Shown here in pieces: positions 27,059 to 30,883 of a DNA stretch of 37,563 nt. Each line of letters opens with the position of its first letter. Positions within the stretch are counted from its first letter, which is position 1. The notes beneath the pieces were generated by a model. The model had not been told where the DNA came from. It did not search any database and saw nothing but the letters and a program-made list of their open reading frames with translations. The position numbers and the translations under genes were made by a program. This DNA is from a virus. The stretch is from the IMG/VR virus record IMGVR_UViG_3300041955_000163, positions 1-37,563 of that record; one strand, 5' to 3'.

Positions 27059-27220
27059 CTAGTCTCCTGCCTCGTCTTCCCACTCCGTCTCGTCGGCGGC
27101 ACGTACCCGGAGGATCTTCACGTCCTCCTCCTTCTCGATGCCGATGACCTCCACGTGGGGAATCAAGGTCCCTTCGTCGTCCACGACGATGTCGATGATG
27201 TTCCCTTCCTTAACGACCAT
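27059..27220 (-). CDS. Acidic 53-aa protein
   Basis: It starts at ATG 27220, overlapping the GroEL stop by 11 bp, with GGAGG nine bases upstream in the GroEL coding end. The sequence is acidic (IIDIVVDDEGTLIPHVEVIGIEKEEDVKILRVRAADETEWEDEAGD). It lies between GroEL and the wall enzyme in the same operon. No family is recognised. Confidence 0.65.
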   Translation of the reverse strand: MVVKEGNIIDIVVDDEGTLIPHVEVIGIEKEEDVKILRVRAADETEWEDEAGD

Positions 27221-28694
27221 CCTTCAGTGCCTCCGAGACCGTGCCCTCGCAACTCAATACCAGGGTCGCAATCGAAGCAGCATTTCTGAGCGATGCCTTC
27301 ACCACTGCCACCGGGTCAAGGATGTCGGTAGTGACCTCCACATCGTGCCCGGCGTTCAGGCAAATCTGGTTGTAGGGAGCGCTGCACGCCTCCCTGACTA
27401 TGGAGTCGGCAGAGAGGGAACTTGCAGCGTCGGCGAGCCCCACGCCCGCCCCCACCACGACACCCTCCCGGACGGCGGCCATCGTGGCTCCCACGGCGTC
27501 CTCCACCCGGTCCTTCTTCTCGCTTTGCTCGGCGGCGGTGGTCCCGCCGACCTTGATGACGGCTACCTGCCCGGCAAGCAGGGCTATGCGCTCGGCAAGC
27601 TGCCCCTGCTCGTAGTCGGACTCCGATGCCTCCCGAGCCTTGCGCAGGGAGACGATTCTCTTCAGAAGATCCACGGGCTCCCCCTTGCCCCCGAGGATGG
27701 TCGTCGAGTTCCGGGTGACGATGGCGGAGTCGCAGGAGCCGAGGTGCTCCAGCCCGACCTTGTCCAGGGGGATGCCAAGCTCGTCGGTAAGGGCTACCCC
27801 CCCGCAGACGGCGGCGATGTCGCCGAGGAACGCCTTGCGCCGGTCCCCGTAATAGGGCACGACCACGCAGCAGCTTTTCAGTGCCGTGCGGTTGGCGACC
27901 ATAATCTGGAGGATGTCGAACTCGAAGTCCTCGCAGAGGAAGAGCAGGGGACGCCCGCTCTTGAACACGGTGTCCATCAGCTTCATGTAGGGGGGCAGCG
28001 CCGTCACCCGCCGCTCCAGCATCAGGAGGTAGGGATGGTCGAGCGTGCATACGCCGGTCGCCGGGTCGGTGACGAAGTTCTCGACCTTGTAGCCGCTGGC
28101 GAACTTGAGACCCGCCGTCGCCTCCACCCGGCTCTCGGCCGTCCGTGAGTTGTCGATGGAAATGCTGCCGTCCTCGCCCGCCGCAGTGATCGCCTGCGCC
28201 ACGAGGTGCCCGATCTCGGCGGATCCGTTGGCGGCGAGGGTCGCCACCAGCACCGCCCTGTCGCCCAGGGGCTCCGCAGCCCTTCCGAGGTTCTCCGCCA
28301 CGGTATCTACGTCGCAGGCTATCTCCCGCCGAAGGTCCACGAACGACCGGGGGGAAGCCATCGCAAGCTCCAGGATGCGGGTCCCGAGGAGGCACGTCGC
28401 CGTGGTGCCGTCGCCCACCTGGCTGACCGTCTTATTGGCAGCCTGCCTCAGGAGCGCAGCACCCATCTCTTCGTTTGAATCCCCGAGATGAATCGAGCGG
28501 GCACAGGTAACCCCATCCTTCGTGGTCTGAGGGTCATACCAGATGCGACCATCCTTGGTATCGACCGCACGCTCAATAACGCACGTCCTACCATAAGGTC
28601 CCATCGTGCTGGAAACTACCTCGTTGAGCTTCTTCATCCCCGATAGAAGCCTCTTCCGGGCTTCATCCCCGTGCAGCAGCAGCTTGCTCATCAT
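27210..28694 (-). CDS. groEL: Phage GroEL-like chaperonin, C-terminally shortened
   Basis: This 494-aa protein starts at ATG 28694 with AAGGAG just upstream, overlapping the previous stop. Hallmarks: TMGPYGR (30-36), TTKDGVT (57-63, Asp-60 matches Asp-52), GDGTTAT (94-100, Asp-95 matches Asp-87), then RVEDAVGATMAAVREG with Asp-399 matching the catalytic Asp-398, and VGAGVGL. It therefore has the ATPase residues. E. coli GroEL has 548. The shortage is C-terminal: between LNAGHDVEV and ILDP the usual loop carrying the GYNAATEEY segment is missing, and there is no GGM tail. Phage chaperonins usually help fold structural proteins. The pair with GroES in one operon supports a working chamber. Confidence 0.9.
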   Translation of the reverse strand: MMSKLLLHGDEARKRLLSGMKKLNEVVSSTMGPYGRTCVIERAVDTKDGRIWYDPQTTKDGVTCARSIHLGDSNEEMGAALLRQAANKTVSQVGDGTTATCLLGTRILELAMASPRSFVDLRREIACDVDTVAENLGRAAEPLGDRAVLVATLAANGSAEIGHLVAQAITAAGEDGSISIDNSRTAESRVEATAGLKFASGYKVENFVTDPATGVCTLDHPYLLMLERRVTALPPYMKLMDTVFKSGRPLLFLCEDFEFDILQIMVANRTALKSCCVVVPYYGDRRKAFLGDIAAVCGGVALTDELGIPLDKVGLEHLGSCDSAIVTRNSTTILGGKGEPVDLLKRIVSLRKAREASESDYEQGQLAERIALLAGQVAVIKVGGTTAAEQSEKKDRVEDAVGATMAAVREGVVVGAGVGLADAASSLSADSIVREACSAPYNQICLNAGHDVEVTTDILDPVAVVKASLRNAASIATLVLSCEGTVSEALKDGR

Positions 28695-29104
28695 TTCTCC
28701 TTGACCACCACCTCGGCGGGTATCTCATATTCCTTCACCAGGAAGCGCACAGCCGACCGCAGGGCTACCAGCTTCCGGGCGGTAGAGGTTGCCCTGCCCA
28801 GCCTGCTGAGAATCCGGCTCAGGGTATTCCTGACGACGTGACGGTCGCCGTTCTTCCCCGAAGCCTCGGCTATCCAGCTATAGGCGGAGCTTACGTTGAT
28901 GCCGTTCGCCTTCAGGTAAGAGCAGAAGGTCCCAAGGCGGGAACCACGGTAACCACCTGTGGAATTCCTCCTGCCGAAGCAGGCACGCAGCCTGATGAGG
29001 AGCTTCCCCGCCTTTATCCGCTCAGCCTTCAGCCTGCGGGTCCCGGCAGCGATGGAGCCTGCCAGCCGGACAATCTCCTTGGTAAGAGTCCCTATGCTGC
29101 TCAT
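28691..29104 (-). CDS. DUF3102-like helical protein
   Basis: This 137-aa basic protein starts at ATG 29104 (MSSIGTLTKE) with GGAGGTC seven bases upstream, its ATG sharing TGATG with the methyltransferase stop. The stretch KAGKLLIRLRACFG, then GTFCSYLKANGINVSSAYSWIAEASG resembles the DUF3102 pattern (G-x-x-L-x-x-x-K, then F-x-x-W/Y-L, then S-x-x-x-A). This may be a DNA-binding helix-turn-helix. The C-terminal part is basic and helical. Role is unknown. A transcription or partition-like function is only a guess. Confidence 0.65.
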   Translation of the reverse strand: MSSIGTLTKEIVRLAGSIAAGTRRLKAERIKAGKLLIRLRACFGRRNSTGGYRGSRLGTFCSYLKANGINVSSAYSWIAEASGKNGDRHVVRNTLSRILSRLGRATSTARKLVALRSAVRFLVKEYEIPAEVVVKEK

Positions 29105-30105
29105 CACTTGACCTCCATGAACGCCTTTATGAACTCCGCCGCGACCTGCGGGACTATGGCGTTGCCGTATCCCCTGAGGGCGTCCACCCTGCCGGGTAGC
29201 CTTGGAGCCACCGGGCATGTTCCGGGTTGAGCGGGTCTATAGACCCCGTCCCGGCACCAGAGCCACTCGCAGCCGTCCCAGAAGCCAGAAGAGCGTAGTC
29301 CCTCAGCTTGTAATGCCCCGCCGTCCCCGGCCGAACCTCCATCACTCCGCCCTCCCCGTCCGAGGCGTGGGGCGTCCTCCACGAGGCCATCAATGCCTGG
29401 TTCCCCAGGCTGGGGCTGAACCCCCTGGCAAGAGCCTGCTCCGCCGTGCCGTTCGGCTCCTGAGAGCGGGGCGTCTGCCATCCCGCCATCCTCGCTTGGT
29501 CCTTCAGGTCGCTCCAGTAGCTCCCCGGCATCCGTGGGTCCCGAGGCTGGTCGGGCTTGAGGCGCATCGGGCGTCCCTGCCCCGAGGCATCCGTCTCTGT
29601 GGGGGTCTTCCAATAACCTTGCCCCCCAGTAGATTCTGTGCCGCATGTGCGGTGCCCCGACGCCCGCAGCAGGCAGTACGGCAAGCCCAGTAACGTAGCC
29701 CTCTCGCTCCAGCGGTAGGAGAAGAGCCTCGACCCAGTGGTGCTTAATCGCCGCCTCAACCTGCTCCCCAAAGAGGAGCTTAGGACGCATAGAGCGGACG
29801 AGTCCGAGGAAGGGGTAGAGCAACTGGCCACGGGGGTCGTTGAACCCCCTTCCCTTGCCTGCGGTGCTGAAGCTTGGGCAGGGGAGGCTGGCGGTCCAGC
29901 ATCCAAGCTCGGGGCACCCGGCAAGCCGGAGGGCGTATGCCCACCCGCCGATGCCTGCGAACAGGTGGACCTGCGTGTATCCTTCAAGGTCTCCGGGGGT
30001 GATGTCCTCAATGCTGCGCTCGTCGATGGTTCCATCGGGTATAAGCTCCTTGTCGATGAGGTACCTGAGCCACCTGCCGGTGGCTATGTCGTTGTAGTAG
30101 GTCAT
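29104..30105 (-). CDS. DNA (cytosine-5) methyltransferase
   Basis: This 333-aa protein starts at ATG 30105. Motifs: I HLFAGIGGW (47-55), IV LPCPSFS (75-80, catalytic Cys-77), VI GEQVEA (113-118), VIII MRHRIYWG (154-161) and X GYGNAIVPQ (312-320). Between about 162 and 290 lies a low-complexity linker in which LEDP, MADAP and VEDAP recur. This is the phage-type Dcm layout. It likely protects phage DNA from host restriction or copies a host modification. It follows the glycosyltransferase gene by 4 bp. A second frame of the same DNA also looks coding and is described separately. Confidence 0.9.
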   Translation of the reverse strand: MTYYNDIATGRWLRYLIDKELIPDGTIDERSIEDITPGDLEGYTQVHLFAGIGGWAYALRLAGCPELGCWTASLPCPSFSTAGKGRGFNDPRGQLLYPFLGLVRSMRPKLLFGEQVEAAIKHHWVEALLLPLEREGYVTGLAVLPAAGVGAPHMRHRIYWGARLLEDPHRDGCLGAGTPDAPQARPASGPTDAGELLERPEGPSEDGGMADAPLSGAERHGGAGSCQGVQPQPGEPGIDGLVEDAPRLGRGGRSDGGSAGDGGALQAEGLRSSGFWDGCEWLWCRDGVYRPAQPGTCPVAPRLPGRVDALRGYGNAIVPQVAAEFIKAFMEVK

Positions 30106-30109
30106 CAGG

Positions 30110-30883
30110 CTATCCTCCTCCCCCCCTTCCTACCTTCCCGTGCGGTCTGACCTCGCCCGGTGGCAGCCTCTTGGTACCGCCCCTTCCTATGACATCCGGG
30201 CACTGCATGAGGACGTACTTTCCGGGTATGCCGGAACGCCGGTCCGTGTAGTAGCCCACGAGGTCGCTGTCCTCCGCCCTTATCCCGTGGTCCCACAGGA
30301 CCCTTCCCACCCAGCCGTCCTCGATGGTCCAGTCCTCGGGGTCCGCCTCCGCCATAACCTGCAACGACCTCCGGGATAGCCAGTAGGCTCCCCCGCTGCA
30401 ATAGGCACCGACGTGCCGGTGATGGTTGACGGCGCTCGAATACGCCCCGAGCACCCTGCCGCAGTAGTCCGACCCTGGTCTGGGAAGACCAGGGTAGACG
30501 ATGCTATCGTCGTCCACCTTCCACATCCCGCCGTAGCCGAGGACGTAGACGAGCCTGAAGACGGCGGACATCTTCTTGGGCAGCGACCTGTAGTCATCGG
30601 GCACCGCATAGCCTACCACGGAGGAGAGGTTTCTCCCGGTGGCCACGAAGATGTCGTACTCGCTGGCGAGATGGGGGAACCACGTCCTGAGCGCGACCTC
30701 CAGCCGGTGCTGGTACCGGGGTTGGTCGCAGGTGATGAGGGCGATGGCAGCATCGGATGCGGGCTGTGCATCGGATACGACCACGGAGGGGAGGGGAGGA
30801 GAAAAGGGGTCCCAGGCGTAGGAGCGGTAAGGGTCGGCGCTGCCCTCGGGATAGGGGGTCGTTGAGAATGGGGACGTGGCCAT
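30110..30883 (-). CDS. GT31-like (Fringe-type) glycosyltransferase
   Basis: This 257-aa protein starts at ATG 30883. KVDDDSIVYPG (122-132) holds the DDD metal site. CSGGAYWLSRRSL (162-174) and EDWTIEDGWVGRVL (183-196) match the later motifs of GT31 galactosyl/Fringe enzymes (GGAY-x-L-S, then ED-V-x-x-G). There is no signal peptide or membrane span, so it acts in the cytoplasm. The acceptor could be phage or host surface sugar, a virion protein or modified DNA. The adjacent methyltransferase makes DNA worth considering, but no hydroxylase gene is present. It is the first gene of the late operon. Confidence 0.78.
   Translation of the reverse strand: MATSPFSTTPYPEGSADPYRSYAWDPFSPPLPSVVVSDAQPASDAAIALITCDQPRYQHRLEVALRTWFPHLASEYDIFVATGRNLSSVVGYAVPDDYRSLPKKMSAVFRLVYVLGYGGMWKVDDDSIVYPGLPRPGSDYCGRVLGAYSSAVNHHRHVGAYCSGGAYWLSRRSLQVMAEADPEDWTIEDGWVGRVLWDHGIRAEDSDLVGYYTDRRSGIPGKYVLMQCPDVIGRGGTKRLPPGEVRPHGKVGRGGGG

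Follow-up and report, generated by a model that had tools for sequence, protein, structure and literature searches.

A methyltransferase gene on the minus strand of the virus record IMGVR_UViG_3300041955_000163 (37,563 nt of DNA, analyzed as a whole and here called the window) can be read in two overlapping frames, which raises the question of how the two readings are used. A sequence-only reading of the locus had noticed that frame 0 gives a LEDP/MADAP/VEDAP linker and GYGNAIVPQ, that the frame one base later (+1) gives YWKTP, GWQTP and SWRTP followed by LNPEHARWLQGYPAGW, and that a run of six G is located at the junction; inspection of the sequence confirmed all three. It had suggested that the two C-termini are frameshift relatives, switched by the loss of one G, or that the gene uses both ends. 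Our analysis strongly favors a reading in which the locus encodes a single C5-cytosine methyltransferase as two polypeptides, alpha (frame 0) and beta (+1), which are made from one DNA stretch and associate into the active enzyme.

The alpha product is a C5-cytosine methyltransferase by sequence match and predicted structure, with a catalytic core that contains the PC motif and adopts the M.HhaI fold in the model. The alpha ORF matched PF00145 in the Pfam search (2.4e-20), and frame 0 matched the PHROGs family phrog_363, named 'DNA methyltransferase' (1.3e-59). Alpha also gave a sequence match to HhaI (1.6e-11), and its predicted model matched the M.HhaI/M.HaeIII fold in Foldseek (1.9e-9). The features of the alpha frame are:

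30114-30119, minus strand: AGGAGG Shine-Dalgarno site, visible in the sequence 8 nt before the alpha ATG (30105)
29104-30105, minus strand: alpha ORF, 333 aa, C5-cytosine methyltransferase with motifs I-VIII and X
29620-30105, minus strand: alpha catalytic core, motifs I-VIII, residues 1-162, with pLDDT mostly 80-97 and variation at frame-0 third positions
29287-29583, minus strand: alpha reading of the recognition region, residues 175-273, a predicted disordered linker with little constraint as protein
29113-29193, minus strand: motif X, GRVDALRGYGNAIVPQVAAEFIKAFME, in the alpha frame; in frame 0 in 216 of 218 loci

In the structure model, the linker had pLDDT values mostly below 50, and residues 181-266 were predicted to be disordered. 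Regular expressions run over all loci did not find motif IX in frame 0. Motif X seemed to be missing from 52 genes, but nearly all of these carry variants such as GNAIN.

The features of the +1 frame and of the junction are:

30046-30051, minus strand: AAGGAG Shine-Dalgarno site, 10 nt before the beta ATG (30035)
29154-30035, minus strand: beta ORF, 293 aa, nested in alpha in the +1 frame, matching phrog_1008 (5e-16), open in relatives and with constraint in the +1 frame
29658-29804, minus strand: predicted beta helix-hairpin domain, beta residues 78-126, sharing its DNA with the final part of the alpha core
29622-29627, minus strand: G6 run near the core/recognition junction, unconserved and probably incidental
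29381-29612, minus strand: three W-x-T-P modules in beta, beginning at the W codons 29612, 29480 and 29381
29184-29231, minus strand: motif IX, LNPEHARWLQGYPAGW, in the beta frame

Beta consists of an N-terminal leader, the helix-hairpin domain (pLDDT 74-91 in the predicted model), the W-x-T-P recognition modules, which were modeled with low confidence (pLDDT about 40-70), and motif IX. The beta stop falls within the DNA of alpha motif X; in the window it is reached shortly past motif IX, which is earlier than in most relatives. The second-frame C-terminus that had been noticed is real and corresponds to the second half of beta; its extent had been drawn too short, since the ORF starts at the ATG at 30035 and not at the G6 run. 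The whole +1 ORF matched phrog_31772 (1.6e-8) in addition to the phrog_1008 match of the +1 frame, and the different PHROGs families matched by the alpha and beta frames are all named 'DNA methyltransferase'. Both readings represent real sequence families, and the gene appears to use both. Searches with beta against Pfam, NCBIfam and PDB sequences gave no match, and neither did a fold search with the low-confidence beta model.

The start of beta was analyzed in 183 genes. An ATG in the +1 frame before codon 60 was present in 174 of these, mostly at alpha codons 23-39, and absent from 9. A Shine-Dalgarno match of at least 4 nt was observed in 139 of the 174 relatives, as compared to 24% for background ATGs inside the core, a figure that is somewhat inflated by the selection of the best ATG per gene. 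The association with AGG is independent of that choice: in many genes the Shine-Dalgarno site is formed by an AGG codon for the conserved Arg in D-x-R-S-I, this Arg is encoded by AGG in 33% of cases versus 8.7% elsewhere in the same genes, and a +1 ATG follows within 22 nt in each of the 68 AGG cases. With a Shine-Dalgarno site and an ATG of its own, beta is a second gene nested in alpha.

Phage records and a +1-tail search supplied 54 related loci, an alpha profile run on viral contigs and bacterial genomes another 160, and a beta profile 80. In the first set of 54 loci, the +1 tail match was in frame core+1 wherever both hits were present, and one locus, L024, has a frame disruption. For the window gene, the +1 ORF stayed open in 0.02% of 5000 synonymous-codon shuffles of alpha (mean 6.3 stops), at least three W-x-T-P motifs were obtained in 0.06% of the 5000 shuffles, and the motif IX pattern in none. 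Between the core and motif X, no +1 stops were present in any of the 133 alpha-selected genes, whereas shuffling predicted about 30 open genes and 1.64 stops per gene. The third frame of the same 133 genes contained 6.4 stops per gene versus 6.1 expected, and the observed/expected ratio of stops in 438 other ORFs of the same loci, serving as the control, was 0.97. When counted in 20-codon bins, the +1 stops in the 200 codons centered on the core end (-100 to +100) amounted to 2, as compared to about 475 expected; they were near expectation upstream of the beta start and recovered past the beta end. The openness of the +1 frame reaches about 80 codons upstream of the core/recognition junction.

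For the reverse test, the beta protein was kept, its codons were shuffled and frame-0 stops were counted in the recognition region. All 75 beta-selected genes were open, with 0 stops versus 211 expected, while the third frame in this set displayed 458 stops versus 461 expected. Since both frames are open beyond expectation, each is likely to be translated without interruption into one polypeptide, a result that speaks against a fusion by frameshifting. More than 200 related genes, from phages and prophages, preserve the nested layout. Viral contigs searched with the window alpha alone gave no match, although alignment searches did retrieve relatives. The searches returned no relative close to the window gene itself, so that its place in the family is based on the family pattern and the shuffle test.

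Substitutions in 61 disjoint pairs were counted by frame-0 codon position. In the core, the differences at positions 1/2/3 numbered 1140/843/2642; the corresponding counts were 1397/514/446 for the recognition region, 165/62/67 for motif IX and 130/89/409 for motif X. Of the 61 pairs, 59 showed the switch in the recognition region, and the amino-acid identity in this region was 0.69 in frame 0 versus 0.86 in +1. Constraint is not confined to one frame: the counts indicate that frame 0 is the constrained one across motifs I-VIII, gives way to +1 for the recognition region and motif IX, and takes over again at motif X. Finer bins showed that frame-0 third-position change decreases from 0.40 at the core start to 0.15 near the core end. 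By this measure, both frames are partly constrained in the last approximately 60 core codons, coinciding with the predicted helix-hairpin domain of beta. The GC content of the window gene at codon positions 1/2/3 shifts from 0.64/0.47/0.76 in the core to 0.80/0.64/0.62 in the recognition region, which implies that the high-GC third positions belong to the +1 frame in the recognition region.

The return of the coding frame before motif X, following the switch after motif VIII, could also be explained by programmed frameshifting near the core end, for example at the G6 run present at the window junction, which would join the core and the +1 recognition domain in one polypeptide; a second shift might then restore frame 0 for motif X. 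However, among 231 distinct relatives, a homopolymer of at least five lies within 30 nt of the junction in only 20, a frequency similar to that in core control windows, and no conserved slippery site was found at the frame junction in this set. Furthermore, such a fusion needs neither an open +1 frame upstream of the junction nor an open frame 0 downstream (0 stops, 211 expected), and beta has its own Shine-Dalgarno site and ATG. Slippage at the G6 run, as suggested by the sequence-only reading, was rejected because the run is not conserved and both openness tests contradict it, and we consider a fusion by frameshifting very unlikely. That the frame-0 protein alone is real, and the +1 ORF a passive by-product of frame-0 motif conservation in GC-rich DNA, is extremely unlikely. 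Frame 0 does carry the catalytic motifs and motif X, many annotators list this frame alone, and some of the +1 conservation necessarily mirrors frame-0 motifs. Yet it is the +1 frame that is conserved in the recognition region and motif IX, where frame-0 residues 181-266 are predicted to be disordered, and a shadow ORF driven by composition was rejected based on the synonymous shuffles, the control ORFs and the third frame.

Beta could instead be an overlapping protein that functions separately, such as a regulator or an anti-restriction factor, rather than a methyltransferase subunit, since sequence evidence is what ties it to alpha here. We regard this as a slim prospect: beta carries motif IX, the sole C5-methyltransferase motif missing from alpha, modules of its kind share the core frame in actinophage monomers, and motif IX sits on the smaller polypeptide in M.EcoHK31I (PMC3404938).

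According to the preferred reading of one enzyme in two parts, alpha would be the AdoMet-binding, catalytic subunit, in which motifs I-VIII and X are joined by a long disordered linker. Translation of beta would start independently inside the alpha gene, at the ATG at 30035 preceded by AAGGAG, and beta would supply motif IX and the target-recognition modules in the form of W-x-T-P repeats. The two subunits would associate into an active enzyme, which probably protects the phage genome from restriction. Support at the sequence level comes from the maintenance of both ORFs, the switch of the constrained frame, the start signal of beta and the division of motifs IX and X between beta and alpha, respectively.

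The best reading is that the locus encodes a C5 methyltransferase that is naturally split in the way M.EcoHK31I is, a likeness at the level of subunit and motif layout. M.EcoHK31I has the specificity YGGCCR, and the ORF for its small subunit is located inside that of the large subunit in another frame. The large subunit carries motifs I-VIII and X, the small subunit carries motif IX, and the predicted recognition domain was placed in the large subunit (PMC3404938). Similarly, the window alpha has motifs I-VIII and X without motif IX, which is found on a second, putatively translated ORF. The layout is also alike, with beta (29154-30035) inside alpha (29104-30105) in the +1 frame. The window family differs in that its recognition region evolves as +1-coding while the alpha reading is predicted to be disordered, and the window beta has 293 codons and a modular array, as compared to 176 aa for the small subunit of M.EcoHK31I.

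M.AquI has the specificity CYCGRG. Its catalytic motifs are on one polypeptide and its recognition and motif IX parts on another (PMC3404938). Motif X goes with the small subunit in M.AquI, whereas the window family has motif X in alpha. The motif distribution of M.AquI is shared by Arthrobacter phage Andrew (gp43/gp44), with a 239-nt +1 overlap. The pair 'C-specific methylase' and 'Mte8-like protein' of Kagunavirus K1G and K1ind2, both enterobacterial phages, belongs to the same family as the window gene and has the same nested +1 layout; the alpha core is about 54% identical to that of the window. The K1ind2 and K1G records annotate both nested CDSs, and beta was called 'Mte8-like' by the record authors, MTE8 presumably being the UniProt entry name of M.EcoHK31I. 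The multispecific C5 methyltransferases of Bacillus SPR and phi3T have tandem recognition modules of about 40 aa on a single polypeptide. Tandem modules are also present here, although divided from the core in a proposed two-polypeptide enzyme for which multispecificity is putative.

In most betas, W-x-T-P-like modules number two to four and are spaced by about 25-45 residues. The last module of the window is W-R-T-P-x-x-S-D-G-E-G-G-V-M-E. The S-D-G-E-G-G-V-M-E module is the first, second or third depending on the gene, and is 70-90% identical across loci with cores that are about 30-45% identical. The W-x-T-P modules appear to be swappable recognition modules, and we infer that they read DNA because they are placed between motifs VIII and IX. 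The beta frame would probably hold the part that sets the DNA specificity. Motif IX was in frame core+1 in 261 of the 262 loci with this motif; the exception is L024, in which the whole tail is shifted.

Other frame arrangements were observed in actinophages. In Cornucopia gp70 and prophiGD91-2 gp27, the core, L-x-T-P modules, motif IX (of the type L-x-x-x-F-x-E-W-M-M-G-x-P) and motif X are all in one frame and on one polypeptide. A profile comparison of the beta tails with the actinophage monomers gave a match at motif IX alone (18 columns, E 5.7e-6, probability 85%). The notion of frameshift relatives holds in the sense that modules and motif IX are in the core frame in the monomers and in +1 here, but not as a switch at the G6 run. 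Arthrobacter phage Andrew (L309, 285-1434) has motifs I-VIII in one ORF and the modules, IX and X in a +1 gene. The loci L305, L306, L307 and L308 are also two-gene C5 methyltransferases, with L-x-T-P modules in the second frame, and the second ORF was seen to contain motifs IX and X in L305, L306, L307 and L309. Abidatro, RedFox and Orcanus probably share the arrangement of Andrew, as their second gene is annotated from a later start but its frame is open upstream.

In Arthrobacter phage MidnightRain (L299, 850-2301), the core, IX and X are in frame 0, and seven L/W-x-T-P motifs are located in a 311-codon open +1 stretch, with none in frame 0. The same modules may here be arranged in yet another frame pattern, a lead from one genome in which openness by itself is not significant (P 0.09). 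Gordonia phage Lton (L302) has two L/W-x-T-P motifs in frame 0 and three in +1, and Propionibacterium phage PFR2 (L300) one in frame 0 and three in +1, which suggests sets of modules in two frames. Phage C5 methyltransferases may form a frame-switching family in which the swappable modules share the core frame (monomers), lie in +1 together with IX and X as an overlapping second gene (Arthrobacter phages), are nested in +1 along with motif IX (more than 200 relatives and the window) or occupy +1 while IX and X stay in frame 0 (MidnightRain). The overlap would couple the subunits, and specificity would evolve by module swapping into multispecific enzymes with an often unannotated beta; we consider the case for this broader reading evenly balanced.

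The principle of a split and overlapping enzyme is already known from M.EcoHK31I and from the K1 phage records, in which both genes are annotated. No paper on this overlap in phages, and no description of its breadth, the selection evidence or the modular array, was found in the literature searched. The breadth in phages and prophages, the selection on the beta frame in the recognition region, the modularity and the actinophage frame arrangements look underappreciated. The overlap is long (about 290 codons), fully nested on the same strand and conserved in phages and prophages from Proteobacteria as well as other phyla, and the handover of selection from frame to frame is visible within one gene. 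In many cases, genes of this type are annotated in one frame, so that the probable specificity part is absent from databases or is named instead of the enzyme. Predictions of specificity from the alpha protein would then rely on a disordered linker, and a codon-optimized alpha expressed alone in a heterologous host would destroy beta, resulting in a dead enzyme if the model is true. The genes offer a testable system for the division of labor in overlapping genes and for module-based, possibly multispecific, methylation.

In Cronobacter phage JC01 (L003, 633-1713), the beta ORF (739-1713) is annotated and the alpha ORF (633-1667) has no CDS, so the catalytic frame is missing from the annotation. 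The ORFs flanking the window gene (30110-30883 and 28691-29107, both minus strand) had no PHROGs match. Two genes downstream of the methyltransferase, the window encodes a GroEL-type chaperonin (27210-28694, minus strand; phrog_5725, 3.8e-97).
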